A stretch of DNA of 41,789 nt. Origin: a virus. The stretch covers positions 1 to 41,789 of IMG/VR virus record IMGVR_UViG_3300037507_002918, one strand, 5' to 3'. Shown here one piece after another: positions 11,414-40,798 of this stretch. Both the position numbers and the translations under genes were made by a program. Below the pieces are notes generated by a model that saw nothing but the letters and a program-made list of their open reading frames with translations, ran no database searches and was not told where the DNA came from. Every line of letters starts with the position of its first letter. Position 1 is the first letter of the stretch.

Positions 11414-11463
11414 GAAAAAAATCTTTTCAAGCCCTTGACGGCTTATTGCCGAATGGCAATACT
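11414..11463 (+). promoter_or_regulatory. Cassette promoter A with operator ATTGCC-N4-GGCAAT
   Basis: An A-tract (GAAAAAAAT, 11414-11422), -35 TTGACG (11435-11440), 17-bp spacer and -10 AATACT (11458-11463). The perfect inverted repeat ATTGCC-GAAT-GGCAAT (11445-11460) overlaps the spacer and -10, so a bound protein would block RNA polymerase. The predicted start near 11470 leaves a 46-nt leader. Closely related copies drive minus-strand genes at 39461-39514 and 40349-40400, with a partial copy at 40770-40798. Confidence 0.78.
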
Positions 11464-11515
11464 ACACCCACGCAAGCAAATGAGACTTGCGGCCACGAAC
11501 TGAGGAGCCACAACG

Positions 11516-11845
11516 ATGACCACAGAAAAAGATTCCACCGCGACCAATCGGGCAGCCTTCGGCAACGGAAACGGCCGCGATGCTTGCGAATGCTGCGGCA
11601 AGAAAGTCAACCTTGCCCGCGGCGTATGGCTGGAACACGATCAGCGGATCGACGCTTTCCACGATTATGAGTTTGGAGTTCCGGCCGATCGGTCGCAAGG
11701 ATGGTTTCTATTCGGCCCCGATTGCGCGGCCCGGTTGCTGCGCGATGCAAAGGAACGGGCGAAAGCCAGCGGCATCTTCTTAGGCCGGAAGCGAATCGGC
11801 AAGGCAGGGCAGGCGGCGCTCTATGTTGAGTTCCGAAAGCGGTAG
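11516..11845 (+). CDS. Accessory cassette protein with Cys motif (109 aa)
   Basis: First gene behind promoter A. ACECCGKKVNLARG near residue 22 and FGPDCAARLL near residue 66 give a CxCC...C arrangement that may bind zinc. The rest is charged and Gly-rich. The ATG follows a GAGGAGCC ribosome site. Function is not recognised. A perfect 11-bp hairpin (11855-11879) separates it from the next gene. Confidence 0.65.
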   Translation: MTTEKDSTATNRAAFGNGNGRDACECCGKKVNLARGVWLEHDQRIDAFHDYEFGVPADRSQGWFLFGPDCAARLLRDAKERAKASGIFLGRKRIGKAGQAALYVEFRKR

Positions 11846-11854
11846 TAGACAAAA

Positions 11855-11879
11855 GCCCGCCGGCACAGTGCCGGCGGGC
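11855..11879 (+). terminator. Perfect 11-bp intergenic hairpin
   Basis: GCCCGCCGGCA (11855-11865), loop CAG, TGCCGGCGGGC (11869-11879), starting 9 nt after the stop of the first cassette gene. There is no U-run. It matches the style of the hairpins between the minus-strand cassette genes and probably protects or attenuates transcripts. Confidence 0.55.
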
Positions 11880-11914
11880 AGGGACGATCGACACGAACAC
11901 AAGGAACCATGACA

Positions 11915-12259
11915 ATGACCACCGCAACGAAAATCGACCACAATACTTGGCACTACCGCGGCTTCACGATCCAACGCAACTACATGAGCAGCCACGGCAC
12001 TCGCCGCGTCTGTTCGTCGCAACAGGGCTACCGCACAACCCCGCAGACGCACTACACCGGGGGCATCGCAGGCGATTGGACATCGACGCTCACAAAAGCC
12101 GTCGAGCGGATTGACGGTCTGTATCGACGGCACGCGGCTGGTGAGTTGCAATACACCAGCCGCGCCGCTGTCGAGGAGGCCGTTCGCATCGCCTGCGATC
12201 GCGGCGAAACCACCGCCTGCCCCGATGCTCACACTTGCCGCCACGGCATCGACAACTGA
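11915..12259 (+). CDS. Accessory cassette protein (114 aa)
   Basis: Reads HYRGFTIQRNYMSSHGTRRV early and ends in a Cys/His-rich tail (CDRGETTACPDAHTCRHG). Of two in-frame ATGs, 11915 is preferred because AAGGAACC then sits at the 8-nt spacing seen in the related minus-strand cassettes; ATG 11909 is too close to it. The early WHYRGFTI block resembles short host-interaction proteins of mobile elements, but no family is recognised. A hairpin with a T-run follows. Confidence 0.62.
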   Translation: MTTATKIDHNTWHYRGFTIQRNYMSSHGTRRVCSSQQGYRTTPQTHYTGGIAGDWTSTLTKAVERIDGLYRRHAAGELQYTSRAAVEEAVRIACDRGETTACPDAHTCRHGIDN

Positions 12260-12274
12260 AACCCAACAGGCGGG

Positions 12275-12317
12275 GCCACCCGGCCAGCCGAAAGCCGCGA
12301 ACAGGGTGGCGCTTTTT
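12275..12317 (+). terminator. Terminator-like hairpin with T-run
   Basis: GCCACCC (12275-12281) pairs with GGGTGGC (12304-12310), and is followed by GCTTTTTCTTT. A smaller stem can form within the loop. It has the best U-tract of any hairpin in the window and is likely a partial intrinsic terminator within the cassette. Confidence 0.6.
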
Positions 12318-12340
12318 CTTTCGACATAGGAGCCGAAGCA

Positions 12341-12613
12341 ATGGCAACAATCAAAAGGCCGAAAACGTTGTGCGGCCTATACGGCAACCGTGCCAAGGTT
12401 GTTTCCATCGATGGCAACCGGCTTACATATCGCTGGCCTTGCGGGCATGAGCGAACCGAAGTGCTAATGCAAGGCCCGCGGGGTCTGCGAAAGCCGGCCA
12501 GCGACGAAACCGCGGCATTCTTTGCCAAGTATTGGGCGCAGGGGGTTACCTACGAATGCCCGCGATGCCGGCGCAAGGCGCTTGCCGCGGCAAAGAAGCC
12601 AAACAAGCCATAG
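12341..12613 (+). CDS. Accessory cassette protein, probable zinc-binding (90 aa)
   Basis: A basic protein with CGHE in the middle (YRWPCGHERTEV) and CPRCRRK near the end, forming CxH...CxxC, a likely zinc site. The N-terminal part (CGLYGNRAKVVSIDGNRLTYR) suggests a small beta barrel. The ATG follows TAGGAGCC with standard spacing. It ends the cassette group begun at promoter A. Function is unknown. Confidence 0.62.
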   Translation: MATIKRPKTLCGLYGNRAKVVSIDGNRLTYRWPCGHERTEVLMQGPRGLRKPASDETAAFFAKYWAQGVTYECPRCRRKALAAAKKPNKP

Positions 12614-12653
12614 CCCCGCCCGCCCGCGGGCGCCGCCGCCTAGACTCCGCGGC

Positions 12654-13076
12654 ATGGAAACCATTTCACTAGTGGCCGCCGATGGTCTGGCGGAATCTGA
12701 CGCAATCGCCATCGTTCGCCGGCTATCAAGGCAGGGCAGCGAATGGCAGATTGAGGTAGCCGGCATCCTCGCGGGGGAAGCCTCCAGCGCCACCCCGGTG
12801 GCGCTCTGGCATTCGGACGGCTGCCTAGCCGCGTGGGCTTGTTCGCATTTCTGGCGCGAGCAGCAAACCCTAGAGCAGTTCACAGACCCGCGCTACCGCA
12901 ACCTCGGCATAGCCACGACGCTTTCCGCGTTCCTGCGCTCGGCTGGCGTGATCGCGCCAGCCTCGCGGCTTGCCGTGTTCTCGCCGCATACCTACCGCAT
13001 TGCTACGCGGCTCGGGTTTAGCGACGTTTGGCGTTATGAGCGTAGCGGCGGCGAATGGCTGCCGGTAGAGCCATAG
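12654..13076 (+). CDS. GNAT-like acetyltransferase-fold protein (140 aa)
   Basis: The segment DPRYRNLGIATTLSAFLRSAG corresponds to the acetyl-CoA loop and following helix of GNAT enzymes (R-x-x-G-I/A-type turn). TYRIATRLGFSDVWRYE matches the conserved C-terminal A-x-x-LGF strand. The N-terminal half is short but consistent. The ribosome site is weak. It is inserted between terminase and portal without an obvious morphogenetic role, so it may be an accessory gene acting on host proteins or small molecules. The substrate is unknown. Confidence 0.62.
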   Translation: METISLVAADGLAESDAIAIVRRLSRQGSEWQIEVAGILAGEASSATPVALWHSDGCLAAWACSHFWREQQTLEQFTDPRYRNLGIATTLSAFLRSAGVIAPASRLAVFSPHTYRIATRLGFSDVWRYERSGGEWLPVEP

Positions 13077-13114
13077 ACCCCTACGCGCGAAGCCATCGCG
13101 GCTAGCGTAGAGGT

Positions 13115-13312
13115 ATGAGCGAAGAACTGCGGCAAGCGATCCAACAAACGGCGACCGGCCCCAAGAGGGTTCGCACGGATGCCGGCGAGGTTGAGTCGCA
13201 AGATATCTCCAAGCAAATCGAAGCCGACAAGTATCTGAGCGCGAAGGCTGGCGCCTCGACGAACCACCGCGGGCTGCGGTTTAACACGATCGTCCCTCCG
13301 GGGTCTGTCTAG
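13115..13312 (+). CDS. Small head-module protein (65 aa) upstream of portal
   Basis: A short polar protein (MSEELRQAIQQTATGPKRV ... RGLRFNTIVPPGSV) whose stop overlaps the portal GTG. Similar 60-70 residue proteins with this start and a VPPG-like ending occur between terminase and portal in many siphoviruses. It may join head components, but no role has been assigned. An inverted repeat CTACGC/GCGTAG (about 13081-13111) precedes it. Confidence 0.65.
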   Translation: MSEELRQAIQQTATGPKRVRTDAGEVESQDISKQIEADKYLSAKAGASTNHRGLRFNTIVPPGSV

Positions 13313-14745
13313 TGGGTTTTTTCGGAAACCTTTTCGGATCAGCGCCGCGCGGCAAGGCCCAATCGCCGCAGCGTGTTCGCGCGCGATTCGATGCCGCCGA
13401 ATCAACTGACGATCGCCGGCATTGGGCGAACGCTGACTATCTTTCGATGGATGGCGCGCTCACTTCGACGGTTCGCGCAAAAATCCGAAACCGCGCCCGG
13501 TATGAACGAAACTCAAACTCCTATCTCGCCGGCATTTCGGAAACGATCGCCGTTGACCTAGTGGGAACGGGGCCGCGGCTGCAACTCGACACGGGCAACC
13601 CGGAAGCCGATCGCGAAATCGAGCGCCGCTTTTTTGATGATATGTGGAGGATTGACCTTCCCGGCAAACTCCGCACGATGCGGCAGGCCAAACTAATCGA
13701 CGGCGAGGCTTTCGCGCTGTTCTATACGAACCCGCGACTAGACGGGGTGCAACTAGATATCCGGCTGATTGAGGCCGATATGGTGGCGACCCCCGCCGGG
13801 GTCTATCAGACCGCGGTTACCGCGGAGGGTTCGGTGGTTGACGGGATGGAGTTTGATGCGGTTGGCAACGTGGCCGCGTATCTGGTTCTAAAAAACCATC
13901 CCGGCTCCAACTGGTATTCGTCCGCGTTTGAGTTTACGCGCATCGACGCGGCGCGGATCGTGCATTGGTTCACGGCGCAGCGACCGCAGCAACATCGCGG
14001 CATTTCCGAAGTTGCCCCGGCGCTGCGGCTGTTCGCGAACATGCGCCGCTATACCGAAGCCACGATTGCCGCCGCGGAAATCGCGGCCGATATGGCCGCG
14101 TTTATTCATAGCAACTCACCGGCCGCAGAGGTCGATGAGGTTGACGCATTTCAGGCCGTAGAGATTGAGAAGCGCACGCTAACTACCCTGCCGGAAGGCT
14201 GGAGCGTTTCGCAACTGAAAGCGGAACAGCCCACTAGCACCTACGCGCAGTTCAAGCGCGAAATCGTTTCGGAAATCGGGAGGGCGCTGAATCTGCCGTA
14301 CAACATTTCGGCGCTTGATTCCAGTTCCTACAACTACGCTTCCGGCCGCATGGATGCCGGCATCTATCACGCAACGCAGCGCGTGGCGCGCGACGAGATA
14401 GAGCGCGTAATGTTGGATCGGCTGTTTTACGAATGGGCAGACGAAGCCGCATTGCTCACCGGCTATATCCCGGCAGGGCTTCCGCCCGTGGCCGAATGGC
14501 GTTGGTCATGGGTTTGGGATGGTCGCGAACACGTTGACCCCGCGAAGGAAGCCAACGCAATCGAAACGCGGCTCCGAACCCACACGACAACGCTTTCCGC
14601 GGAATACGCGAAGGCCGGCAAAAACTGGGAAACGGAACTGCGGCAGCGGGCCGCGGAAGTGACGTTAGCGCGCGAACTGGGGTTGCCGGAAGTCATCCAG
14701 CAGCCGCAGCAACCGCAGCAATCCCCGGAGGATGCCGCGCCGTGA
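13312..14745 (+). CDS. Portal protein, lambda gpB family (477 aa)
   Basis: Forms the dodecameric ring through which DNA enters and leaves the capsid. Typical family blocks are visible: RNRARYERNSNSYLAGI, then DLVGTGPRLQ, the central DIRLIEADMVATPAG, IVHWFTAQRPQQHRG, and the late NLPYNISALDSSSYNYASGR. The length fits the lambda-type family. It begins with GTG, overlapping the previous stop. The C-terminal Gln/Pro-rich tail (QQPQQPQQS) is probably disordered. Followed by a 24-codon ORF and the capsid gene. Confidence 0.92.
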   Translation: MGFFGNLFGSAPRGKAQSPQRVRARFDAAESTDDRRHWANADYLSMDGALTSTVRAKIRNRARYERNSNSYLAGISETIAVDLVGTGPRLQLDTGNPEADREIERRFFDDMWRIDLPGKLRTMRQAKLIDGEAFALFYTNPRLDGVQLDIRLIEADMVATPAGVYQTAVTAEGSVVDGMEFDAVGNVAAYLVLKNHPGSNWYSSAFEFTRIDAARIVHWFTAQRPQQHRGISEVAPALRLFANMRRYTEATIAAAEIAADMAAFIHSNSPAAEVDEVDAFQAVEIEKRTLTTLPEGWSVSQLKAEQPTSTYAQFKREIVSEIGRALNLPYNISALDSSSYNYASGRMDAGIYHATQRVARDEIERVMLDRLFYEWADEAALLTGYIPAGLPPVAEWRWSWVWDGREHVDPAKEANAIETRLRTHTTTLSAEYAKAGKNWETELRQRAAEVTLARELGLPEVIQQPQQPQQSPEDAAP

Positions 14746-14816
14746 TTTATGTCGATTTCGATTTCTACGATGAGGCCGAAACCGACACAGTTCCCACGCT
14801 AGGCAAAGCACTATGA
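14742..14816 (+). CDS. Micro-ORF (24 aa) coupled to portal and capsid genes
   Basis: GTG at 14742 overlaps the portal stop (GTGA) and its own TGA overlaps the capsid ATG (ATGA at 14813). A strong GGAGG site lies about 11 nt upstream. The acidic, aromatic product begins VIYVDFDFYDEAET. The double overlap suggests that ribosomes pass through it, either as a translated peptide or as a coupling device setting capsid gene output. No family is known at this size. Confidence 0.5.
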   Translation: MIYVDFDFYDEAETDTVPTLGKAL

Positions 14817-16657
14817 AAACCAAAATCATTTTCGAACAGCCGGTAGATTTCGTGGCCGCCGCCCCTGACGCGGGCGAGGCCGCGGCGCCGGGGCCGCGGA
14901 AGTTTTCGATTCGCGCCTACACGGGCGCCGCCATCCGGCAAGGATGGTCGCGCGAGCCGATCGTTATCGATCTGGCCGGAATGAAACTGCGGCAGAAAAT
15001 CCCGATCGTCATGGGCCACGATTACGGGCTTGGTTCCATCTTGGGGCAGACCACCAGCGTCCGCGTCGAGGCCGGCGAGTTGATCGTGGATGCCGAAATC
15101 CTTGCCAGCAATGACGGCGCTTCGCGCGTTGTGGAACTGGCCGATAGGGGTTTCCAGTGGCAGGCCAGCGTGGGCGCTGACGTTGGCCGGCATGAACGCA
15201 TTCCCGCGGATCAAACCGTTATGGTCAACGGCCAGCCATTCAACGGCCCTATCAGAATCGTCAGAGCCTCGACGTTGCGCGAGGTTTCATTTGTGACCCT
15301 TGGGGCGGATGACGCAACCACCGTCCAAATCGCGGCAGATGCCGCGGAGGAAACCACTATGGCGCACGACGCCAACGAACAGCCCGCGGAAGCCATCACG
15401 GCCGCCGTGGAAGCCCCGGCGACCGTCGCCGTGGAAGCCCCCGCCAGCGCTCCCGCGGTTGTCGCGGAATCGCAGTCGCCGGAACTTCTTGCGACCATCG
15501 AAACCCTTAACAAGAAACTCGACACGATGGAAAAGTTGATTGCAACGCGAGATTCTCGCGCGCCCGCCATTCACGTTGCAGAGCCGGCGACCGGCGGCAG
15601 GGTGATTGAAGCCGCGCTGTGTATGCAGGGCGGTTTGTCGAAGCCGGAAAAGTATTACGACGAGCGCACGGTCGAGGCTGCCGCGAAGCAGCAGCGCAGC
15701 GTTTCGCTCGGTGAGGTTTTCGTGGAGGCGGCCCGCGCCAACGGCTATAACGGTTCGTCGCGGATTTCCGCCACGAATCTGCCAATGGTGATTCGCGCCG
15801 CGTTCGCCACTCACGCGATTAGCGATATCCTTTCGAACGTCGCGAATAAGTTCCTTCTTTCGGGCTTTAACGCGGTGGAACGCACTTGGGATCAGATTTC
15901 CGCTATCCGTAGCGTCAATGACTTCAAGAGCGTGAGCCTCTACAGGCTGAATGGTTCGTTTAAGTTTGCCAAGGTCGGCAATGGCGGGCAGATGCAATCG
16001 GCTGACGCTAGCGATTCGAAGCGAAGCGTCAACGCTGATACCTACGGCATCACTTCCAACGTGACCCGGCAGGATATGGTTAACGACGATTTGAACGCGC
16101 TCACCGCGCTGCCGCAGCGCATTGGCCGCGGGGCTGCCCTTAGTCTCGCGGAGCAGATTTGGACGGAGTTTCAGAACAGCAACGCTACCTATTATTCGAA
16201 GGCTACCGCCGCTGCCGGTAACGCGCTTACTCTGGCTTCGCTCAAAACCGCCGCTACGGCCTATCGGAAACTGAGCGATCCCGATGGTAACCCGCTTGGG
16301 ATTTCGCCTAGCGTGTTGCTGGTTCCGCCAGAGTTGGAACTGACCGCCGCCGAACTTATGGGATCGTCGCTTCTTATCAGCGGCAACACGACGGCGCAGG
16401 GGAATGCAAATGTTCTCGCCGGCCGGTATCGCGTGGTTTCGTCCGCGTATCTGTCGAGTGCGTCAACGTGGTGGCTGTGTGCCGATGCTGCCGATCTGGC
16501 CGCTATGGATGTTGTATTCCTTAACGGTCAGCAGACCCCCACGATCGAACAGGTCGAACCCGCGCCGGATACGCTTGGCGTTACCCTCCGCGGCTACATG
16601 GATTTCGGTTGTGCCAAGGGCGAATCGCTCGCGGCCTACCGCATGGCGACCGCTTGA
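14813..16657 (+). CDS. Prohead protease / scaffold / major capsid fusion protein (614 aa)
   Basis: Residues 1-180 form a prohead protease: PIVMGHDYGLGS supplies catalytic His (69) and FQWQASVGAD the Ser (119), as in HK97-type serine proteases. Residues 183-255 are an Ala/Glu linker with a coiled coil (ELLATIETLNKKLDTMEKL) resembling a scaffold domain. Residues about 260-614 resemble the Mu gpT-type major head subunit (RQDMVNDDLNALTALPQRIG and ARGAALS-like helix). Such fused protease-capsid proteins are known. A strong internal start at 15359 probably yields separate scaffold-capsid. A 13-bp hairpin follows the gene. Confidence 0.88.
   Translation: MKTKIIFEQPVDFVAAAPDAGEAAAPGPRKFSIRAYTGAAIRQGWSREPIVIDLAGMKLRQKIPIVMGHDYGLGSILGQTTSVRVEAGELIVDAEILASNDGASRVVELADRGFQWQASVGADVGRHERIPADQTVMVNGQPFNGPIRIVRASTLREVSFVTLGADDATTVQIAADAAEETTMAHDANEQPAEAITAAVEAPATVAVEAPASAPAVVAESQSPELLATIETLNKKLDTMEKLIATRDSRAPAIHVAEPATGGRVIEAALCMQGGLSKPEKYYDERTVEAAAKQQRSVSLGEVFVEAARANGYNGSSRISATNLPMVIRAAFATHAISDILSNVANKFLLSGFNAVERTWDQISAIRSVNDFKSVSLYRLNGSFKFAKVGNGGQMQSADASDSKRSVNADTYGITSNVTRQDMVNDDLNALTALPQRIGRGAALSLAEQIWTEFQNSNATYYSKATAAAGNALTLASLKTAATAYRKLSDPDGNPLGISPSVLLVPPELELTAAELMGSSLLISGNTTAQGNANVLAGRYRVVSSAYLSSASTWWLCADAADLAAMDVVFLNGQQTPTIEQVEPAPDTLGVTLRGYMDFGCAKGESLAAYRMATA
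15359..16657 (+). CDS. Nested in-frame start giving scaffold + major capsid (432 aa)
   Basis: Within the fusion gene an ATG (Met 183) is preceded by GGAGGAAA with 8-nt spacing to the GGAGG end, stronger than the site before the full-length start. It sits exactly at the boundary between the protease domain and the scaffold-like coil. Internal initiation here would produce abundant scaffold-capsid without protease, as lambda C/Nu3 does for its scaffold. This is inferred from the ribosome site and domain boundary only. Confidence 0.6.
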   Translation: MAHDANEQPAEAITAAVEAPATVAVEAPASAPAVVAESQSPELLATIETLNKKLDTMEKLIATRDSRAPAIHVAEPATGGRVIEAALCMQGGLSKPEKYYDERTVEAAAKQQRSVSLGEVFVEAARANGYNGSSRISATNLPMVIRAAFATHAISDILSNVANKFLLSGFNAVERTWDQISAIRSVNDFKSVSLYRLNGSFKFAKVGNGGQMQSADASDSKRSVNADTYGITSNVTRQDMVNDDLNALTALPQRIGRGAALSLAEQIWTEFQNSNATYYSKATAAAGNALTLASLKTAATAYRKLSDPDGNPLGISPSVLLVPPELELTAAELMGSSLLISGNTTAQGNANVLAGRYRVVSSAYLSSASTWWLCADAADLAAMDVVFLNGQQTPTIEQVEPAPDTLGVTLRGYMDFGCAKGESLAAYRMATA

Positions 16658-16677
16658 CCCTAGCCGCGTAAACCGTA

Positions 16678-16710
16678 GCCGGTCGGCGGCAGACGATGCC
16701 GCCGGCCGGC
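16678..16710 (+). terminator. 13-bp hairpin after the capsid gene
   Basis: GCCGGTCGGCGGC (16678-16690) pairs with GCCGCCGGCCGGC (16698-16710), including one G-U pair, around AGACGAT. It lies 21 nt after the capsid stop and before the decoration gene. No U-run is present. A stem here could stabilise the very abundant capsid mRNA or partly terminate it. Confidence 0.55.
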
Positions 16711-16750
16711 ATGACGATCCACAAACCCCCAGTTTTTCGAAAGGCTCAAA

Positions 16751-17074
16751 ATGGCTTCTTTCAAGCAGGAACCCGGCACTTGGCCGTACACCCCCAGTTC
16801 CGCCGTTGCCGCTGGCGACGTTGTGGTTTTGACTGACGGCATCGCCGTGGCTTCGCGGCCGATCGCCGCCAACACGCTCGGCGCCGTCAACGTTGAAGGC
16901 GTGTTTACGTTCCCGAAGGCCGCCGAAGCGCTCGCGCTCGGCGCCGTCGTTTATTGGAACACGACTAACAGCAACATTACGGCAACCAGCGCCGGCGGCA
17001 AGCGCGCTGGCAAGGTCGCCACCGCTGCCGTTTCGGGTGACGCAACGTGCTGGGTCGATCTGAATCGCGGTTGA
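16751..17074 (+). CDS. DUF2190 family capsid decoration protein (107 aa)
   Basis: A small beta-rich protein with the family pattern: ASFKQEPGTWPYTPSSAVAAGDVVVL, AVNVEGVFTFPKA, LGAVVYWNTTN and a C-terminal AGKVATAAVSGD. DUF2190 members sit directly after the major capsid gene and are thought to decorate or stabilise heads. The ATG is preceded by CGAAAGG. A long GC hairpin follows. Confidence 0.85.
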   Translation: MASFKQEPGTWPYTPSSAVAAGDVVVLTDGIAVASRPIAANTLGAVNVEGVFTFPKAAEALALGAVVYWNTTNSNITATSAGGKRAGKVATAAVSGDATCWVDLNRG

Positions 17075-17092
17075 CGATCCCCGGCCGCTAGC

Positions 17093-17133
17093 CCCCGCCG
17101 CCCGCGCGCAAACCGCAGCGCGCGGCGGCGGGG
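17093..17133 (+). terminator. Long GC hairpin after the decoration gene
   Basis: Left arm 17093-17109 and right arm 17118-17133 pair over 16 bp with one bulged C; the 8-nt loop is AAACCGCA. It is followed by CATTTCATTT, a modest U-rich tail. This is a plausible partial terminator separating abundant capsid/decoration transcripts from downstream genes. Confidence 0.6.
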
Positions 17134-17159
17134 CATTTCATTTGTGGAGCGTGGCCGCG

Positions 17160-17540
17160 ATGGATGCACTACGAACAGGGGCCGCGTGGTTAGCCGGCCA
17201 GTTGCGCGCGAGCGCGTCTAGTCGCGTCATCTACCGCCGCGGCGCGGCATCGGCCACGGTGCTAGCGACCGCGGGGCAATCCATGTTCGAAAGCGCAGAT
17301 TCGAATGGGGTGCTAGAGCAGTGGCAGAGTCGCGATTTCATTTTTTCCGCTGGTGATTTCCCCCACGCGGAGCCGCTTCGCGGTGACAAAATCCTAGAAA
17401 TGATTGGCGGGGTCGCAAACGTTTTCGAGGTATCAAGCCCGCGCGGGGTTCCGCTGTACCGATACGGCGATGCTTTCCGCTCCACGATCCGCGTACACGC
17501 TACGCGAGTGGGCATAGACGCAACTGTAACCGCAATCTAG
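17160..17540 (+). CDS. Head-tail connector/stopper-like protein (126 aa)
   Basis: Reads MDALRTGAAWLAGQLRASAS, RVIYRRGAASATVLATAG and then WQSRDFIFSAGDFP, with EPLRGDKILE. This is the pattern of a conserved phage family found after DUF2190 genes, probably a head-closure protein. ATG 17160 follows GGAG (17145-17148); TTG 17142 and GTG 17151 are weaker alternatives. Role is inferred from position and size. Confidence 0.65.
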   Translation: MDALRTGAAWLAGQLRASASSRVIYRRGAASATVLATAGQSMFESADSNGVLEQWQSRDFIFSAGDFPHAEPLRGDKILEMIGGVANVFEVSSPRGVPLYRYGDAFRSTIRVHATRVGIDATVTAI

Positions 17541-17552
17541 CCGGGGGAGCCG

Positions 17553-34096: not shown

Positions 34097-34147
34097 ACGG
34101 GGCTGATTAGAGGCTGCCGCTATAGGCTGAAAACGGAGGCCGTAGCG

Positions 34148-34890: not shown

Positions 34891-35594
34891 TGGCAACGGC
34901 TTTTTCTCTCACCGGCTCTATCCGCTTCGTGCCTAGGCTCATCGACACGCTAGCCGCCACCGAAGTAACCGACACGGCAACCGCGTCGATCGCGCTGGGG
35001 CTGGCCGATGGCACGGCAGCCGGGGCCGCTAATGGCTACTGGCGCGACGTTGTGACGGTGGCGCCGGGCGCGTCAACGTCTATCGATCTGCGGGCGCTGC
35101 CGCTCATCGCGTTCGGTGGCACGGGAACGCTATCGCTGGCGACCGTCAAGGCTCTATTGATCGTCAACGGTTCGGAATCCGAGGGCGTAACGATCAACGC
35201 CAGCGGTTCGAATCTTTGGGCGGGCTACATTGCCGGCAGCGCAGCCATTGGCGCGCAGGCCGTTTGGCTGGCGTCGAATCCCGGCGCTGGCTGGCCTACC
35301 AGCGCAACCTCGCGAACGGTGACGATCGCCAACGCGGCGCAATCCGTTTCGCTTACCGGCAACCTCGCCAGCGCTTCGGCCACGGTGGCCGCGCTATCCT
35401 CGACGGCCGCGCTTCGCGTGGGGCTTGCGGTTACCGGAACGGGCATCCCGGCCGGGGCGACGGTGGCCGCGATCAATAGCGCCACCAGCATCACGCTATC
35501 GGCCGCCGCCACGGCGAACGCTACCGGCGGGGCGCTCACTTTCACAAATCCGCCCGCCGTTTTGCAACTTTATATCGTGGGGGTCAAGGTATGA
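34887..35594 (+). CDS. Beta-rich structural-like protein with Ala/Thr repeats (235 aa)
   Basis: Begins with GTGATG, coupled to the previous gene. The first 150 residues align in layout with the protein encoded at 34378 (SIDLRALPLIAF versus DALDLLALTQS; TVTIANAAQSVSL versus TLRIANPNATAV). The C-terminal part (ATVAALSSTAALRVGLAVTG) is a bacterial Ig-like or repeat beta domain. It may be a virion surface protein. Confidence 0.55.
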   Translation: MMATAFSLTGSIRFVPRLIDTLAATEVTDTATASIALGLADGTAAGAANGYWRDVVTVAPGASTSIDLRALPLIAFGGTGTLSLATVKALLIVNGSESEGVTINASGSNLWAGYIAGSAAIGAQAVWLASNPGAGWPTSATSRTVTIANAAQSVSLTGNLASASATVAALSSTAALRVGLAVTGTGIPAGATVAAINSATSITLSAAATANATGGALTFTNPPAVLQLYIVGVKV

Positions 35595-36145
35595 TTGTAA
35601 GCGTGGTTTTAGCCGTCGCTGGCTGCGCCGTGTTTGGCTGGCCGTATATCCAGCGGTTCTATGCGGCGCTGGATTGGTCGCATATCGACAAGCGCCATAT
35701 CGCTGCCGCGTTCCTCATCGCCGCGGCGCTCGCGTTTGCCCTTGCCCCGTCTGGCGAATCCGACTCGCCATCACCAACGCCGGCGCCCGGCGGGCCGCTA
35801 AACCTTCGCGGCTTATGGGTCGGCGGCTCTGCTAGCGCGGACGCTTCCACCGTTGGCGCGCTCTGTTTGGAGTTGGCAGACGAAATCGAATGGGATTCGA
35901 TGACGGGCAAACCGCCGCGATGGTCTACCGGGGTGGCGATCGATGAACTTCGGCAGAGCGCCCGCGAGTTGCGTTGCCGCGGCGAATCAATCGGGGATAG
36001 GCAGCCAAAAGCGGCTGACGCGATCGCCGCATATCTGGACGCGGAGGTAGGAACTTCCGGCGGGCCGGTAACCCCGGAGCAGCGAGCCGCGTGGATTTCT
36101 GCGCTGCGAACCATAGGGGAGGCCGCCAGTGACGCAGCGCGCTAA
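35591..36145 (+). CDS. Membrane protein of the putative lysis cassette (184 aa)
   Basis: Two hydrophobic segments (SVVLAVAGCAVFGWPY, residues 3-18; HIAAAFLIAAALAFALA, 36-52) precede a Ser/Pro linker and a soluble helical domain of about 110 residues. It overlaps the start of the peptidase gene by 17 nt. The layout suits a holin or anchoring partner, with the helical part outside or inside the membrane. No known holin family is recognised. Confidence 0.6.
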   Translation: MIVSVVLAVAGCAVFGWPYIQRFYAALDWSHIDKRHIAAAFLIAAALAFALAPSGESDSPSPTPAPGGPLNLRGLWVGGSASADASTVGALCLELADEIEWDSMTGKPPRWSTGVAIDELRQSARELRCRGESIGDRQPKAADAIAAYLDAEVGTSGGPVTPEQRAAWISALRTIGEAASDAAR

Positions 36146-37241
36146 AGCGTTTTCGATTTCGGCCATTCTGTTTGTAGTCGTTACTTCCGCGCTAGGCGTG
36201 GTTGTGGCGCGCTACACAAACACGATCCTCGACCGCGTGGAGCGGCGCGCGTTTGGCTACACGCCAGACCCGGAAGGAACGCAAGCGTTCCTAGCAACGC
36301 TCGGGGACGAAAGATTTTTCGCGCAGGCCGGCGCCGATGCGATGCAAAACGCAAAGGGCATCGATACGTTTCTATATCGCCAAATGGATAAGGCGCATCA
36401 GGCTAGATATGGAAAGCCTTTCGTAGTCGGCCGGCAGTTGATCGGGGATTGTGTCGCATGGGGTGCGATGCACGCGATTTTTTGCCAAGATTCTGTGTCG
36501 TGGTCGCTTGGCAAACTGCCAGAGCCGCCGCGAATGCCAAGCACAGAGGCCATCTACGGCGGCGCGAGGGTCGAGGCGAGAGGAAAGCCGGGGGACGGGG
36601 CGCAGCCTTACGGCGGCTGGAATGACGGCGCGACGGGATTTGGCGCGGCAAAGTTTTTGCGCGAGTTCGGCGTGGTCTACCGCGAGCCGGTAAATGGAAT
36701 CGACCTAACCACCTATAGCGGCGACCGCGCGAAACAGTGGGGCGCGTATGGTTGCGGTGGCAAGGGTGATAAGGGGGTGATGGATGGCATCGCTAAACAG
36801 CATCCATGCAAACACGTTGTAAGCGTTCGAACATGGGACGAACTAGCCGCGGCGATCGAGAGCGGCTATCCGTGTACGCTGGCATCTTCGCAGGGGTTCC
36901 AATCTGTTCGCAACCGCGACGGCATCGCGGAGGCAAGCGGAACATGGATGCACCAGATGGCGGCCCTAGCGGTGCGCCACAAAAAAAACGGATCGCCGGA
37001 TGATTGCGTTCTCCTTCTTAATAGTTGGTCGCCTAACTGGATATCCGGGCCGAAATGGCCGGCGGATCAGCCGGATGGTTCGTTTTGGGCTAGGCGCTCC
37101 GTAGTGGAGCGAATGCTGGAAGATGCTTGGGCGATCGGCGACACGAACGGATTTAAGTATCGCGATTTAAACCATCGCGATTGGTTGCAACCTAACGTCG
37201 AATCTTCGAACATTCTGGATACATCGCATGACCGAAACTAG
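36129..37241 (+). CDS. Membrane-anchored papain-like cysteine peptidase, candidate endolysin (370 aa)
   Basis: An uncleaved signal-anchor-like helix (residues 8-28, SISAILFVVVTSALGVVV) precedes a papain-fold domain. The catalytic order Gln-Cys-His-Asn is visible: Q103 and C108 in RQLIGDCVAWG, H275 in WMHQMAALAVRH, N298 in LLNSWS. Such C1-type peptidases are rare in phages. Here it lies amid small membrane proteins at the end of the late region, where an endolysin is expected, and no muramidase, amidase or transglycosylase is found anywhere in the window. Degradation of a protein-rich envelope is the inferred role. A virion or host-control protease is an alternative. Confidence 0.75.
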   Translation: MTQRAKAFSISAILFVVVTSALGVVVARYTNTILDRVERRAFGYTPDPEGTQAFLATLGDERFFAQAGADAMQNAKGIDTFLYRQMDKAHQARYGKPFVVGRQLIGDCVAWGAMHAIFCQDSVSWSLGKLPEPPRMPSTEAIYGGARVEARGKPGDGAQPYGGWNDGATGFGAAKFLREFGVVYREPVNGIDLTTYSGDRAKQWGAYGCGGKGDKGVMDGIAKQHPCKHVVSVRTWDELAAAIESGYPCTLASSQGFQSVRNRDGIAEASGTWMHQMAALAVRHKKNGSPDDCVLLLNSWSPNWISGPKWPADQPDGSFWARRSVVERMLEDAWAIGDTNGFKYRDLNHRDWLQPNVESSNILDTSHDRN

Positions 37242-37536
37242 CGCCGCGATCGTAGCCCCGGCCGGCGAATCGCGAGAGTTCCCAAAGTTTGACCGCAAAA
37301 CAATCACGCTAGCCGTCGCCATTTTCGCGGGCGGCTGGATGATAGGGCAACAGGCTGGCGATTCGTTTTTGCCGTGGCAGCCCAACGGCAAAAGCCGTCC
37401 CGTAGCGAAGTTTTTCGCGCGGCTTGCGAAAACAGGGTTATGGCTAATGCTCGCCGCAGAGCAACCGCAGACGGCTAGCCATTACACGAATCACGCTTAT
37501 CGGCACGGCGAACTAAATCACCGGGAGGGTTGGTAA
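37228..37536 (+). CDS. Small membrane protein of the lysis region (102 aa)
   Basis: One clear hydrophobic segment (ITLAVAIFAGGWMIG, about residues 26-41) and a weaker one (KTGLWLMLAAE). It starts within the last codons of the peptidase gene and ends overlapping the next gene. The size and one-to-two-span topology suit a holin or spanin-like factor, but no family is recognised. Confidence 0.6.
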   Translation: MTETSAAIVAPAGESREFPKFDRKTITLAVAIFAGGWMIGQQAGDSFLPWQPNGKSRPVAKFFARLAKTGLWLMLAAEQPQTASHYTNHAYRHGELNHREGW

Positions 37537-37787
37537 TGTTTTCGCTTATCGGGTGGATTGTCTGCGGGCTTATCGCGGGGTCGATCGCGGAATGGTTCGT
37601 TCCGCTTGATAAGCCGTCGCCGGGGTGGCAGACGATCGCTATCGGCGTGGCCGGTAGCATCGTTGGCGGCATGGTAAACGGGTTGCTTACTGGCGATGCC
37701 TACTCGCCGGCTGGCCTAGTGTGGTCTGTCATTGGCGCGGTGCTATGTCTGTTTGTGTACCGATCGTTCGCGGCTCGGGGGGTCTGA
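37536..37787 (+). CDS. GlsB/YeaQ/YmgE-like membrane protein, holin candidate (83 aa)
   Basis: MFSLIGWIVCGLIAGSIAEW, then GVAGSIVGGMVNGLL and a final GLVWSVIGAVLCLFVYR. Three membrane spans with the GLIAGxxAE motif are the pattern of the transglycosylase-associated/YeaQ family. Small members of this type are often found in phage lysis cassettes and proposed as holins. ATG 37536 overlaps the previous stop and follows GGGAGGG. Confidence 0.72.
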   Translation: MFSLIGWIVCGLIAGSIAEWFVPLDKPSPGWQTIAIGVAGSIVGGMVNGLLTGDAYSPAGLVWSVIGAVLCLFVYRSFAARGV

Positions 37788-37790
37788 CAA

Positions 37791-38123
37791 ATGGCGATCC
37801 TATGGCGGTGGGTTGTGGCGTGGCTGGTATGGCTTTCGTCCGATCCCGCGCAGATTGATAACGAGCGGCCCCGCGCCGCCGCTGCCGTCGCTCTGGCGGC
37901 CGCATCGCTTGCCCGCGACGGTTCCCCGGCCCCAGTTCCACCGGCCCCGCCGGGGCCAACGGATTGCGTCTGCGGCAGCAGTTGCGTCCGCGGCGTCTGG
38001 AAGCCCGATGGCAAGATTGAGCAGCGTTGCGCGTGCGGCTGCCCGCGTTGCGTCAGCGAGCGCGCCAAGGGTGGCGCGGCCCCCTGCCCCGGCGGCAAAT
38101 GCCCGCCGGCAGCCGGCCGCTAG
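37791..38123 (+). CDS. Cys-rich exported small protein (110 aa)
   Basis: An N-terminal hydrophobic start (MAILWRWVVAWLVWLS) looks like a signal or anchor. The middle is Ala/Pro-rich. The C-terminal half holds CVCGSSCVRGVWKPDG, CACGCPRC and CPGGKC, so ten cysteines in pairs. A zinc- or disulfide-stabilised envelope protein is plausible. It sits at the end of the lysis region and might act as a spanin-like or surface factor. Confidence 0.55.
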   Translation: MAILWRWVVAWLVWLSSDPAQIDNERPRAAAAVALAAASLARDGSPAPVPPAPPGPTDCVCGSSCVRGVWKPDGKIEQRCACGCPRCVSERAKGGAAPCPGGKCPPAAGR

Positions 38124-38140
38124 CGGCGAGGGGGTAGCCC

Positions 38141-38527
38141 GTGGGTGATTCCTCAACGGCGCTACTGGCCGAACTTCAGCGCACGATCCGCGATCGGCTC
38201 GGGGAGCCGGCGCGGACGATCCCGAACACTTGCGACGTTATGACGCAAGAAGCCGCGCGCCAGTGGCCGCTACGGGCAATGCTGCGGCTGGCAAAAAACC
38301 AAGCGGCCAAAACGGCCGGGCGCGAAACGATCGCCGCCGTCAACGTCTGCGCGGCGAAATGCCGCGAGGAGTTGGAATACCGCTGGGGCTGTAGCCCCTC
38401 AACCGATCGGGCTATCGGCTTGCTAATGCGGGCCGTTGTAGTCGAGTTCGCAAACTTATGGTTTCGGGATCAGGATACGCGGCTTAACCTTTGCCGAATC
38501 ATCGCGGTGATACGGAAATCAGAATAG
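38141..38527 (+). CDS. Hypothetical helical protein (128 aa)
   Basis: GTG start with GCGAGGGGG 7-15 nt upstream. Mostly helical (SSTALLAELQRTIRDRLGEPAR; RAIGLLMRAVVVEFANLWF). It has several Cys residues (NVCAAKCREEL). No family was recognised. The 3' end converges with and overlaps the minus-strand gene at 38499 by 29 bp, the boundary between the late plus-strand and accessory minus-strand blocks. Confidence 0.55.
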   Translation: MGDSSTALLAELQRTIRDRLGEPARTIPNTCDVMTQEAARQWPLRAMLRLAKNQAAKTAGRETIAAVNVCAAKCREELEYRWGCSPSTDRAIGLLMRAVVVEFANLWFRDQDTRLNLCRIIAVIRKSE

Positions 38528-38642
38528 CCAGCGCATCGAGGGTTTCCGCCACGGCCCGCGCTAGCCGCGAGTCGCTTCCAAGTTCCTGCCCGATTCGCAA
38601 GAGCAGCAGCGCCCGCAACATGGAATCCCAACGCGGTTTCAT
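38499..38642 (-). CDS. Small accessory protein (47 aa)
   Basis: ATG at 38642 overlaps the stop of the upstream gene (ATGA), so it is translationally coupled. The product is one amphipathic helix pair (RWDSMLRALLLLRIGQELG ... RLARAVAETLDALAILI). It is shorter than common annotation cut-offs. Last gene of the transcript from promoter C. Its 3' end overlaps the convergent gene at 38141. Confidence 0.5.
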   Translation of the reverse strand: MKPRWDSMLRALLLLRIGQELGSDSRLARAVAETLDALAILISVSPR

Positions 38643-38854
38643 AGTTCGGCCCCGCTGCGCTCTAGATACCGTTCCGCCTCGCGTATCGCCGCGTGGCATT
38701 CATCGGCCGCCCGCTTGCATTCCTTCGCGCCGCGGCTTGTCGCGTCCAAAAACTCGCGGCGGCGGCTGACGATTTCCCGAAGTATGCCTAGCGTTTCGTT
38801 GTGCATTTTCACAAGCGACACAATCGCGGCGGCGGTGGTTTTGGTGGGTTCCAT
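38639..38854 (-). CDS. Helical accessory protein (71 aa)
   Basis: Predicted almost entirely coiled-coil (SLVKMHNETLGILREIVSRRR, then KECKRAADECHAAIREAERYLE). The leader has TAGGAACC 8 nt before ATG, the ribosome-site form shared by the cassette genes. A perfect hairpin (38873-38897) lies just upstream. Function unknown; possible regulator partner or anti-host protein. Confidence 0.6.
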   Translation of the reverse strand: MEPTKTTAAAIVSLVKMHNETLGILREIVSRRREFLDATSRGAKECKRAADECHAAIREAERYLERSGAEL

Positions 38855-38872
38855 GTTTAGGTTCCTAGGCAG

Positions 38873-38897
38873 CCCGCCGGCCCCCGTGGCCGGCGGG
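38873..38897 (-). terminator. Perfect 10-bp intergenic hairpin
   Basis: CCCGCCGGCC (38873-38882) and GGCCGGCGGG (38888-38897) around a 5-nt loop, 8 nt after the stop of the 55-aa gene and 18 nt before the next ATG in transcript order. No U-run. One of several near-identical-style hairpins between cassette genes. Confidence 0.55.
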
Positions 38898-38905
38898 GCC
38901 GCGGC

Positions 38906-39073
38906 TCACCCCGCGGCAGCCTCGCCGCCCCGGAACGATTCCCAAAGCGAGGCGGCTAGGCTGGCATGGCTGCCGGCCCCGCATACCGCGTCGAGGGCTT
39001 CGGCTACCGTGGCGCCGGCCGCGAGGCGGGCGAGGATGAGGGCGGAAACGTGGGCGGCTTTTTCGGGGGTCAT
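38906..39073 (-). CDS. Small accessory protein (55 aa), below usual ORF cut-offs
   Basis: ATG at 39073 preceded by TAGGAACCC with 8-nt spacing, identical in form to the neighbouring cassette genes; stop TGA at 38906-38908. The product reads MTPEKAAHVSALILARLAAG, then SLAASLWESFRGG: two amphipathic helices. It lies between two hairpins (38873-38897 and 39106-39133), exactly like its neighbours, which supports it as a real gene. Confidence 0.6.
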   Translation of the reverse strand: MTPEKAAHVSALILARLAAGATVAEALDAVCGAGSHASLAASLWESFRGGEAAAG

Positions 39074-39105
39074 GGCTTGGGTTCCTATGGCTTGTGGGGT
39101 TGCTG

Positions 39106-39133
39106 GCCGCCCCGGCGGGATTGCCGGGGCGGC
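39106..39133 (-). terminator. Perfect 11-bp intergenic hairpin
   Basis: GCCGCCCCGGC (39106-39116) pairs with GCCGGGGCGGC (39123-39133) around 6 nt. It starts 9 nt past the stop of the 87-aa gene on the minus strand and ends 32 nt before the next ATG. It probably delimits cassette genes at RNA level. Confidence 0.55.
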
Positions 39134-39142
39134 GGGGGCGGC

Positions 39143-39406
39143 TTAGTAGCGGGCGGCTTCGATATCGATCTGGTTTCCGGCGGGGCCGTACATCACAACC
39201 GAAACTCCGTTAAACCGAAGGTCTTTCGCAAGCCCCAGCGCGTCATACCGGCCGCCGTCCCAATACTTCCGCTGGCCGTTGCTGGCTACAAACTCAACGC
39301 GGTAGGCAGCCCCTTCGGCAATCAGTTCGCGGCGAACGCGGGCGACGGCCGAAGCCTTGGCAACGTTCGAAAGATTCTTGGCGTGATCGTAAAAAGTGGC
39401 GTTCAT
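39143..39406 (-). CDS. Accessory cassette protein (87 aa), first gene of promoter C
   Basis: ATG 39406 follows AAAAGGAACC with 8-nt spacing. The product has a helical N-terminus (MNATFYDHAKNLSNVAKASA) and a beta-rich C-terminus (YRVEFVASNGQRKYWDGGRYDALGL ... VSVVMYGPAGNQ). The second half resembles short domains common in mobile elements. A longer in-frame reading upstream (to 39724) runs through the promoter and hairpin and is rejected. Confidence 0.65.
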   Translation of the reverse strand: MNATFYDHAKNLSNVAKASAVARVRRELIAEGAAYRVEFVASNGQRKYWDGGRYDALGLAKDLRFNGVSVVMYGPAGNQIDIEAARY

Positions 39407-39460
39407 TGTCGAGGTTCCTTTTGAAGTTTCCCGCGGCTCAATCGTCCGCGTGATGGGTGT

Positions 39461-39514
39461 AGTATAGCCAATCGGCAATACTCCGCAAGCCCCTCCACCA
39501 AAAATATTTTTTGG
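39461..39514 (-). promoter_or_regulatory. Cassette promoter C with operator half-sites
   Basis: On the minus strand: an A/T tract (39499-39514), -35 TTGCGG (39488-39483), 16-bp spacer, -10 TATACT (39466-39461). ATTGCC-GATT-GGCTAT (39479-39464) overlaps the spacer and -10 with one mismatch to the perfect repeat. The transcribed start shares ACTACACCCA with promoter A. The leader is about 48 nt. Confidence 0.72.
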
Positions 39515-39582
39515 GGCCGTTTTCCCGTGGGATTGTGGGTTTTTCCCACGATCCCGCGGGGGCCGGCAGCCGGCCAGACCTA

Positions 39583-39609
39583 CCCCCGGCGGCAGGATGC
39601 CGCCGGGGG
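39583..39609 (-). terminator. Perfect 11-bp hairpin after the 98-aa gene
   Basis: CCCCCGGCGGC (39583-39593) and GCCGCCGGGGG (39599-39609) around a 5-nt loop, 8 nt after the 98-aa gene's stop. It is followed on the minus strand by GTAGGTCTGG, without a U-run. It ends the promoter B transcript ahead of promoter C. Confidence 0.6.
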
Positions 39610-39617
39610 CGGGCTGG

Positions 39618-39914
39618 CTATTTCTTTTTTTGCATCGACTCCCAAACGATCGGAATCGGGTTTGGATCGTCCGATTCCTTGCCGATGCTCTTAAACGCGA
39701 CGTTCCTTGCGTTTTGGATTTCACGCGCCGCGTAGTCGAGGCATTCGATGAAATCGTCGGCGCCGCGAGAAGCGAGGATTGCCGACACGATCAGCATCGA
39801 AACGGCTTCGTCGGTTCGCAAAACGTCATCCTCCATCATGCCGCGGCAAAACTTCCGCAGCGGCTTTCCATCTTGGCTATCGTCGATCGCGTCAAAAAGT
39901 TTTTCCGTAATCAT
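39618..39914 (-). CDS. Accessory cassette protein (98 aa)
   Basis: ATG 39914 follows AAAAGGAAC at 8 nt. An acidic helical protein (DGKPLRKFCRGMMEDDVLRT; AVSMLIVSAILASRGADDFI) with a C-terminal Lys run. No family was recognised. Second gene of the promoter B transcript, with a perfect hairpin (39945-39970) on its upstream side. Confidence 0.62.
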   Translation of the reverse strand: MITEKLFDAIDDSQDGKPLRKFCRGMMEDDVLRTDEAVSMLIVSAILASRGADDFIECLDYAAREIQNARNVAFKSIGKESDDPNPIPIVWESMQKKK

Positions 39915-39944
39915 CGCTTAAGTTCCTTTTCCAAGAGTCTGAAA

Positions 39945-39970
39945 CCCCGGCGGCGAAGTTGCCGCCGGGG
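39945..39970 (-). terminator. Perfect 10-bp hairpin with short T-run
   Basis: CCCCGGCGGC (39945-39954) pairs with GCCGCCGGGG (39961-39970) around 6 nt. On the minus strand it is followed by TTTCAG, giving a weak intrinsic-terminator look. It separates the two genes of the promoter B unit. Confidence 0.6.
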
Positions 39971-39979
39971 CGAATCGTC

Positions 39980-40294
39980 CTAGAGGGTGCAGTCGAGGCC
40001 CGTGGCTTGCGTGAAGGCCGCCCGCAGCGTGTCGGCATAGATGCCGGTTTGCGTGGCGATCATGCGGTAGTTGATTCCCCAAACCTTGCCAAACTCGACG
40101 GTGTAATCGTCCGCAGCGGTCAGCGTGATTTTCACGAAGTTGATACCGGCGGTGGCGAACCGCGACGGCAGGCGGAATCGGAGGGAGCCGGCATCGTGGG
40201 CGAACATTTTGGCGCCCGTCATCGCGACGAATCGGCTGCCGCCCAACTGGTTGAGGATTTCGTTTGCGATCGTCTGGCTTTCGTTCGTGGTCAT
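39980..40294 (-). CDS. Accessory protein of a mobile-element-associated family (104 aa)
   Basis: SQTIANEILNQLGGSRFVAMTG, AGINFVKITLTAADDYTVEF, IATQTGIYADTLRAAFTQATG. This layout (LGGxRFxAMTGAK, ITL...YTV, GxYADxLxxxFTxxTGL) is common to a hypothetical family carried by plasmids and phages. Function is unknown. ATG 40294 follows AAAAGGAACCC at 8 nt. First gene of promoter B. Confidence 0.75.
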   Translation of the reverse strand: MTTNESQTIANEILNQLGGSRFVAMTGAKMFAHDAGSLRFRLPSRFATAGINFVKITLTAADDYTVEFGKVWGINYRMIATQTGIYADTLRAAFTQATGLDCTL

Positions 40295-40348
40295 GGCTTG
40301 GGTTCCTTTTGGTTTCTGGCCGCGACTCACTCGGTCGCGTCATGCCTA

Positions 40349-40400
40349 CATATTACCATTCGGCAATACCCCGTCAAGCCCATGAGAAATGATTTTTTTC
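40349..40400 (-). promoter_or_regulatory. Cassette promoter B with operator
   Basis: Minus strand: A-tract GAAAAAAAT (40400-40392), -35 TTGACG (40377-40372), 17-bp spacer, -10 AATATG (40354-40349). ATTGCC-GAAT-GGTAAT (40367-40352) differs from the promoter A operator by one base. The leader to ATG 40294 is about 48 nt. The flanking CCCGAAAAAAATC also matches promoter A. Confidence 0.75.
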
Positions 40401-40424
40401 GGGCTGCGATTTTCCCCGCGAAAC

Positions 40425-40763
40425 CTAGGTTTTCCAGCCCCGGCGGGCGGGCTTGCCGGCCGCGTCACCTTCCAGCCGTTCCGCTTCCGCGATCAGGCGG
40501 GCGGCCCGCTTCCGCAGGCTAGAGGCGGCTGCCGCCGCGGCTTGCGGTAGCGTCCGCTCAATCCGGGGGCGGCCGGTATCGGTTCGCTGGTAGGCCGCCA
40601 CGGCCGCGGCTTCCGCAAACCATCGGCCATCGATCTGTATTCCGGCAACCTTGCCCGCCTTAATCAGTTCCCGCATCCATAGCCGCGAGACTCCCGCGGA
40701 GTCGGCGGCGCTGCCAACGGAAACGTATTTGGTTAGGTCGATCTGGTTTTTGGGTTTTGCCAT
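40425..40763 (-). CDS. Excisionase/AlpA-type HTH regulator with leaderless-looking start (112 aa)
   Basis: VSVGSAADSAGVSRLWMREL ... GIQIDGRWF (residues 15-50) is the winged HTH of MerR/excisionase-type proteins; the rest is an Arg/Ala-rich helical tail (QAAAAAASSLRKRAARLIAEAERLEG). Its -10 (40775-40770) lies six bases before the ATG, so transcription would start at the ATG itself. It is divided from the integrase by 31 bp and both read on the minus strand. It could be Xis, or the regulator of the ATTGCC-N4-GGCAAT promoters, since one overlaps its own start. Confidence 0.68.
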   Translation of the reverse strand: MAKPKNQIDLTKYVSVGSAADSAGVSRLWMRELIKAGKVAGIQIDGRWFAEAAAVAAYQRTDTGRPRIERTLPQAAAAAASSLRKRAARLIAEAERLEGDAAGKPARRGWKT

Positions 40764-40769
40764 GCTGGC

Positions 40770-40798
40770 AGTATTGCCGATTGGATGCCGGCAGTCAA
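40770..40798 (-). promoter_or_regulatory. Cassette promoter D (partial operator) for the HTH regulator
   Basis: Minus strand: -35 TTGACT (40798-40793), 17-bp spacer, -10 AATACT (40775-40770). GGCAAT of the operator overlaps the -10 as in promoter A, but the other half-site is GCATCC. No A-tract is present, because the upstream DNA encodes the integrase C-terminus. Spacing to the ATG implies a leaderless mRNA. Confidence 0.65.

Follow-up and report, generated by a model that had tools for sequence, protein, structure and literature searches.

The stretch of DNA analysed here, called the window, is the whole of the IMG/VR virus record IMGVR_UViG_3300037507_002918 (41,789 nt). It begins and ends with a 131-bp direct terminal repeat (1-131 and 41659-41789; 99%), because of which the record is circular, with a length of 41,658 bp; this had escaped the first-pass annotation of the sequence. 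The window includes genes for terminase, portal and capsid proteins, whose names follow from homology and conserved gene order, and a tyrosine integrase gene with the gene of a small helix-turn-helix (HTH) protein directly downstream. Our subject is a set of four promoter sites, A to D, with a related dyad element overlapping the -10 hexamer: A, B and C precede units of short genes and D precedes the HTH gene. The first-pass annotation had proposed four such promoters, and on reading the sequence we found all four where it had placed them.

11415-11427, plus strand: UP-like A/T tract of A, AAAAAAATCTTTT, upstream of the -35 (sequence reading)
11435-11463, plus strand: promoter A (-35 TTGACG at 11435-11440, 17-bp spacer, -10 AATACT at 11458-11463)
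11445-11460, plus strand: predicted operator A, perfect, ATTGCCGAATGGCAAT (motif and matrix search)
11471-11491, plus strand: leader hairpin of A, CGCAAG, loop, CTTGCG (fold and covariation across cassettes)
11516-12613, plus strand: unit A, three short genes (11516-11845, 11909-12259 and 12341-12613), an insert after the terminase gene
38499-39406, minus strand: unit B, short genes 39406-39143, 39073-38906, 38854-38639 and 38638-38499
39432-39450, minus strand: leader hairpin of B, CGCGG, loop, CCGCG (fold and covariation)
39461-39512, minus strand: promoter B (UP-like tract 39512-39500, -35 TTGCGG at 39488-39483, 16-bp spacer, -10 TATACT at 39466-39461)
39464-39479, minus strand: predicted operator B, ATTGCCGATTGGCTAT, one mismatch (motif and matrix search)
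39618-40294, minus strand: unit C, genes 40294-39980 (phrog_9437) and 39914-39618
40321-40339, minus strand: leader hairpin of C, CGCGAC, loop, GTCGCG (fold and covariation)
40349-40377, minus strand: promoter C (-35 TTGACG at 40377-40372, 17-bp spacer, -10 AATATG at 40354-40349)
40352-40367, minus strand: predicted operator C, ATTGCCGAATGGTAAT, one mismatch (motif and matrix search)
about 40399-40387, minus strand: upstream A-rich tract of C (sequence reading)
40425-40763, minus strand: HTH gene (Xis/MerR-like winged HTH; phrog_1840, E 1.6e-5, and phrog_66), encoding the proposed regulator
40770-40798, minus strand: promoter D of the HTH gene (-35 TTGACT, 17-bp spacer, -10 AATACT)
40773-40788, minus strand: predicted operator D, GCATCCAATCGGCAAT, with the GGCAAT half only, the conserved half being inverted
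40795-41673, minus strand: tyrosine integrase gene (phrog_1, E 7.8e-21), directly upstream of D

Judged by their layout, A, B and C are one cassette, consisting of a UP-like A/T tract, a -35 hexamer, a spacer of 16-17 bp, a dyad over the -10 and a hairpin in the leader. In D, the ATG of the HTH gene lies 6 nt past the -10, which leaves no space for a leader or a Shine-Dalgarno sequence. Two details of the first-pass annotation need amending: the common start sequence, ACTACACCCA, is shared by A and B instead of A and C, and the ribosome site of A is GAGGAGCC and not of an AGGAACC type.

The palindrome by itself was unconvincing. Allowing up to three mismatches, the bare motif was found 29 times in the window where 24.9 occurrences are expected, which is no enrichment, and it took the full cassette and the relatives to reach significance. 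A scoring matrix built from other phages only, with the window's own clade excluded, nevertheless returned B (31.7), A (26.7) and C (18.7) as the top three sites of the window; the best site per dinucleotide-shuffled window (n=200) scored 12.0 on average, with a single maximum of 24.3. With the clade included in the matrix, the training sites score 25.8-33.3, and 3.8 Mb of reversed control sequence yielded 5 matches scoring 12 or higher. ATTGCC-like matches at 8745, 8760 and 8825, close to the end of a coding frame before the terminase gene, recur in relatives and have no promoter context; we set them aside as coding conservation, though this is not proven.

We gathered records of related viruses (designated by G and L numbers) by searching with the terminase, the integrase, the motif or the HTH protein, and curated 58 promoter sites in their contigs. 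Most of these precede a short first gene. Where the sequence of a relative is complete or long, it holds several copies (about 5 to 6 in G047, G048 and G041). The dyad consensus is ATTGCCGA-NN-GG-N-[TA]AT, situated in the spacer and overlapping the -10. The left half of the dyad was a criterion of site selection and its conservation is in part by construction; operator bases 11-12, which were not selected for in the final list, are GG in at least 41 of the 58 sites. The -35 is of the TTGACN/TGGACA kind and the -10 is TATANT-like. Among 73 listed entries, the spacer measures 17 bp in 56, 16 bp in seven and 18 bp in six. The UP-element consensus, AAAWWTWTTTT, is matched with at most two mismatches about 11-23 bp upstream of the -35 at 47 of the 58 sites, as opposed to 1.5% of shuffled upstream segments. 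Downstream of the -10 follow the leader, a Shine-Dalgarno sequence and the start codon, the latter mostly 48-54 nt from the -10.

The closest bacterial-genome matches of the window's terminase are in Planctomycetota prophages, mostly of Phycisphaerae (about 58% identity), from which we infer that the host is probably a planctomycete bacterium. An exact motif search of 392 Planctomycetota genomes gave one match, inside a long open reading frame and attributable to chance, and thus no sign of a host regulon; 80 bacterial loci with a terminase gene, most of them labelled Planctomycetota, had no cassette. In viral sequences, an exact scan with ATTGCCGAATGGNAATA returned 14 loci, mostly chance matches, with cassettes only at L090, L091 and L095. 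One site of G047 reads ATTGCCGATCGGATAT.

The distribution of the sites follows that of the HTH gene. When 2.9 million viral contigs were scanned for the exact motif only, 13 stretches in 12 contigs were retrieved, and all 12 contigs encode the HTH protein; seven of the 12 were not among the contigs from which the pattern was derived, and some of the viruses are nearly identical to one another. Conversely, a scan with the HTH protein only found 27 loci, 25 of which have a site in a promoter just downstream of the HTH gene (the one in L257, counted here, is diverged). In the two loci devoid of a site, L266 and L267, the HTH gene is beside terminase genes. HTH homologues directly upstream of terminase genes start at 5001 in L266, at 705 in L267 and, on the minus strand, at about 26564 in G030. 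The HTH protein matched nothing in 50,697 records of named phages and 72,556 of plasmids, and its profile found only weak matches, devoid of the motif, in 18 of the bacterial genomes mentioned above. G049 has an integrase, an XRE protein and the same head genes, and carries neither the HTH gene nor the cassette. D-type promoters occur upstream of the HTH gene in G000, G044, G047, G048, G050, G032, L229, L146 and L251 and, in weaker form, in G011 and L245; in all of them, the conserved half is inverted and lies 6-7 nt before a leaderless start codon, and their quality varies. The D operator is fuller in some relatives, e.g., GCAGCCGATCGGCAAT in G047 and G048.

A further link is found within the predicted recognition helix, where residue 27 tracks operator bases 11-12: Arg goes with GG in 31 of 34 sites and Leu in none of 12 (Fisher p=1e-8, kinship not being corrected for). 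The Leu lineage (L256, L257 and L258) has other operator centres, some of which are perfect or near-perfect palindromes (ATTGACGATCGACAAT, ATTGTCGATCGACTAT and ATTGGCGATCGCCAAT).

The original proposal, in which a single DNA-binding protein governs a phage-wide set of accessory genes, is thus well supported by comparison. Two candidates had been named for that protein; the HTH protein at 40425-40763 fits and is the likely regulator, and the distribution speaks against the following one.

358-624, plus strand: gene of an XRE (Cro/CI-type) regulator (HTH_3/HTH_31), considered and not favoured as the regulator of the cassettes

It is very unlikely that the XRE protein, or else a host protein, controls the sites and that the units are lysogeny-controlled morons. 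An XRE protein is a plausible prophage repressor, and unit A does occupy a moron-like insertion site between the terminase and portal genes. However, G049 has the XRE gene and lacks the site, L231, L232, L235 and L237 have the HTH protein and the cassette while no XRE match was found in the stretch examined, and the 392 planctomycete genomes gave no sign of a host regulon.

The HTH proteins of this family are small (about 64-112 aa) and have no effector domain, and single-protein Pfam scores for HTH_17 remain below the curated cut-off. An AlphaFold model of the G047 homologue is a winged HTH (mean pLDDT 75.5), for which Foldseek finds Pukovnik Xis and BldC as nearest structures; the match to Pukovnik Xis (PDB 4J2N) has a probability of 1.00, a TM score of 0.74 on the target and an E value of 0.088. 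In its small size, MerR-like winged HTH and position next to a tyrosine integrase gene, the protein has the traits of HTH_17/Xis-like excisionases, and phrog_1840 and phrog_66, which it matches, are families of phage excisionases. One could therefore take it for an excision factor only, the promoters being copies of a cassette that has no dedicated regulator and that look alike through recent duplication; the adjoining A-tracts and leaders show the same likeness, which would be expected of copies. We hold this to be unlikely: ATTGCCGA is nearly invariant across lineages in which the -35, the leader and the genes have diverged, the site recurs in inverted form in the unrelated D promoter, and site and HTH gene co-occur and are jointly absent.

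The MerR/BldC/Xis-like fold, together with a dyad operator in the spacer and some poor -35 hexamers (TTGCGG, TAGGCA and TTGTAT), also brings to mind a MerR-type activator that would turn the cassettes on. MerR-dependent promoters have spacers of 19-20 bp (PMC1526738), and activation is the less likely because the spacer is 17 bp in 56 of the 73 entries here. The protein has no effector domain besides, the UP-like tracts suggest intrinsically strong promoters, and activation would require positive autoregulation at D. Altogether, we deem an activator unlikely.

The first-pass annotation also overlooked that most cassette leaders open with a short hairpin, found by folding and covariation, of which both stem sides change in step (CGCAAG/CTTGCG, CGCGAC/GTCGCG, CGCGAG/CTCGCG, CGCGGC/GCCGCG and others). 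In 20 distinct leader hairpins, 91.7% of the cells are paired, compared to 24-49% with the partner slid, a percentage that is biased since these 20 were picked for looking like hairpins; the informative part is the number of double-change cells, 16 as against 5.9 in shuffles. The hairpin is common, not universal: no clear one was found in the leaders of G042 (1135), L231 and L261. It is not a classical terminator because no T-run follows it. The simplest reading is that it probably serves as a 5' stabiliser or insulator.

The place of the dyad is that of the binding elements of lambda Q and Pseudomonas aeruginosa AlpA, which likewise lie between -35 and -10 (PMC7969949), so that the HTH protein might act as an antiterminator, loaded there and allowing read-through of the GC-rich hairpins between the genes of the units. 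These intergenic hairpins, mentioned in the first-pass annotation, are indeed present, but terminator-like signals in the B/C region (38.3-41.8 kb) do not exceed those in shuffles (5 versus 5.5 expected). A second count gave 5 versus 2.7 expected, and there are none in the leader. No terminator was found close to the promoters, which makes antitermination less likely; moreover, D, which has no leader, is the promoter of the HTH gene itself, and the nearest folds are those of Xis and BldC. We rate this explanation as improbable.

The genes behind the cassette are varied. The 56 first genes represent 36 unrelated families; their products have a median length of 91 aa, and most have no known domain. 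The exceptions include ArdA (PF07275, E 1.9e-34) in L256, ArdC (PF08401, E 3.6e-43) in L258 and a primase-polymerase in L250; the family scan does no more than count members, and it was by sequence inspection that we placed ArdA and the primase-polymerase at these loci. Neither Pfam, PHROGs nor PADLOC recognised acr genes among 21 unit or representative first proteins, and PADLOC had no match to any of these 21. Relatives of the functionally unassigned phrog_9437 protein of unit C (39980-40294) are present in 53 records of named phages (of Vibrio, Rhizobium, Pseudomonas and other hosts), and the protein is a candidate for a broadly useful early protein. The three genes of unit A separate the terminase gene from the conserved gene that comes next, homologues of which align from about 12621; the insert is missing from the same place in G049, G015, G011 and G017, and different inserts are found there in G041, G047 and G048. 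Its anatomy thus looks moron-like, that is, an autonomous unit between conserved phage genes which is missing there from relatives.

The cassette first genes also include a second HTH-bearing protein (L146, L246 and L260). It is about 195-200 aa long and has the same HTH at its C-terminus (from about 2692 in L246, about 2531 in L260 and about 9123, minus strand, in L146). Its gene is preceded by a variant operator, e.g., ATTGCCGATTGATAATATT. It is possible that this is a paralogous regulator with a site of its own.

A strong promoter with an operator over its core is the arrangement that a repressor needs. We consider it fairly probable (roughly 0.6) that the HTH protein is an autorepressor of dispersed strong promoters that would fire in a burst on entry into a naive cell. 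Each cassette would be a strong promoter of the sigma-70 type that contains an operator for the winged HTH protein of the phage itself. This protein would bind the dyad in the spacer and over the -10 and thereby exclude RNA polymerase, repressing its own leaderless gene at D and, at other places in the genome, accessory units A, B and C. In a cell devoid of the HTH protein, all promoters on the incoming phage DNA would fire simultaneously. The resulting burst would consist of short, exchangeable proteins that probably serve in host takeover or against host defences; with accumulation of the HTH protein, the promoters would be shut off, and they would remain repressed in the lysogen. The leader hairpin would probably protect or insulate the short mRNAs. 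We favour repression with an entry burst because of the strong promoters, the operator in the core, the presumably autoregulated HTH gene, the anti-restriction targets and the parallels with the Aca, p576 and SIRV2 systems discussed below. The first-pass annotation had left it between anti-host and lysogeny-expressed genes; the promoter architecture, and ArdA and ArdC in relatives, point to an early anti-host or anti-defence role.

Several observations weigh against this interpretation. The anti-restriction proteins ArdA and ArdC occur in more distant relatives only and not in the window, the unit genes of which have no assigned function. The right half-site is often poor, positions 3/14 being complementary in 16 and positions 4/13 in 28 of the 58 sites, partly because of the overlap with the -10. 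The Arg/Leu link comes from few lineages, and for the close pair L246 and L260 it is confined to the HTH-proximal site. The HTH homologues that neighbour terminase genes (L266, L267 and G030) have no cassette, and because of these not every member of the HTH family has such a regulon; they may represent a different use of the same fold. Finally, a Xis-like protein encoded next to an integrase gene could be mainly an excision factor.

Two further features of the window are listed here.

about 238-291: tRNA-like 3' half (CGGTCTACGGAACCGAAGGTTG to GGTTCGAGCCC), between the integrase and XRE genes
581-1726, minus strand: phage-encoded DNA methylase gene (PF01555, E 4.6e-44)

The integrase and XRE genes are divergently oriented. 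The tRNA-like 3' half recurs near integrase and XRE genes in G047, G049, G050, G032 and G011. Read by hand, it resembles the end of a tRNA-Arg(ACG) and is likely the phage attachment site; Rfam and tRNA scans of the window gave no match. The assembly break adjoins a C homopolymer (about 131-146). The methylase possibly protects the phage's own DNA against restriction.

More broadly, and more tentatively, since we would put it at somewhat short of even odds, temperate phages of Planctomycetota may have a multi-operon establishment regulon in which an integrase-adjacent Xis/MerR-type protein is also the immediate-early autorepressor of plug-in anti-defence units with a standard promoter-operator-hairpin cassette, so that the sequence of the cassette by itself would predict new anti-defence genes. 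Planctomycetota phages are poorly known and most of the small cassette genes lack a recognised domain; with exchangeable units marked by a promoter-operator signature, candidate anti-defence genes could be listed by regulation and not by homology. If the regulator were also the excision factor, the integration decision would be tied to the shut-off of the entry programme.

The individual parts are of known kinds. In the literature searched, we did not find their combination, a phage-wide, dispersed set of sites with a Xis/MerR-type regulator that is encoded next to the integrase and whose gene is leaderless. Pukovnik Xis and other HTH_17/MerR-like excisionases are similar in fold, size and position after the integrase gene, and the protein studied here may likewise act in excision; genome-wide promoter operator cassettes are not part of the definition of a Xis. 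Mycobacteriophage L5 has many dispersed copies of one asymmetric site, the stoperators, bound by a phage regulator; they are found in the small gaps between genes, where transcription is stopped under the immunity repressor, whereas every site described here lies within a promoter.

In p576, a Bacillus conjugative plasmid of clade II of the pLS20 family, one autoregulated repressor controls several strong establishment promoters, which give a burst when the repressor is absent (PMC8708921). Common to both systems are a shared regulatory sequence before the regulator gene and before several operons of variable genes, and the presence of anti-restriction genes among these operons (here ArdA in L256 and ArdC in L258, not in the window). 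They differ in that the p576 regulator is a ribbon-helix-helix protein on a conjugative plasmid, whereas here it would be a winged HTH protein encoded beside the integrase gene of a phage with terminase and portal genes, and its mRNA appears to be leaderless.

Aca systems have inverted repeats inside their core promoters, which are repressed by a HTH protein (PMC9410906). The likeness consists of a small phage HTH protein and an inverted repeat inside the core promoter of short genes, connected here by association. The aca genes are in one operon with acr genes, whereas our HTH gene is preceded by a separate promoter, D. Here, no acr gene is recognised, and the operators are spread among several units, one of them about 12 kb away on the circular genome. 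The early genes of SIRV2 offer a third parallel: a promoter that dissimilar genes share with the gene of a winged HTH protein, Aca8, has been used there as bait for anti-defence genes (PMC11065993). In both cases, a conserved regulatory sequence precedes many dissimilar short genes as well as the gene of a winged HTH regulator; the SIRV2 promoters are of the archaeal TATA/BRE type, whereas those of the cassettes are bacterial, sigma-70-type promoters equipped with a dyad operator and a leader hairpin.

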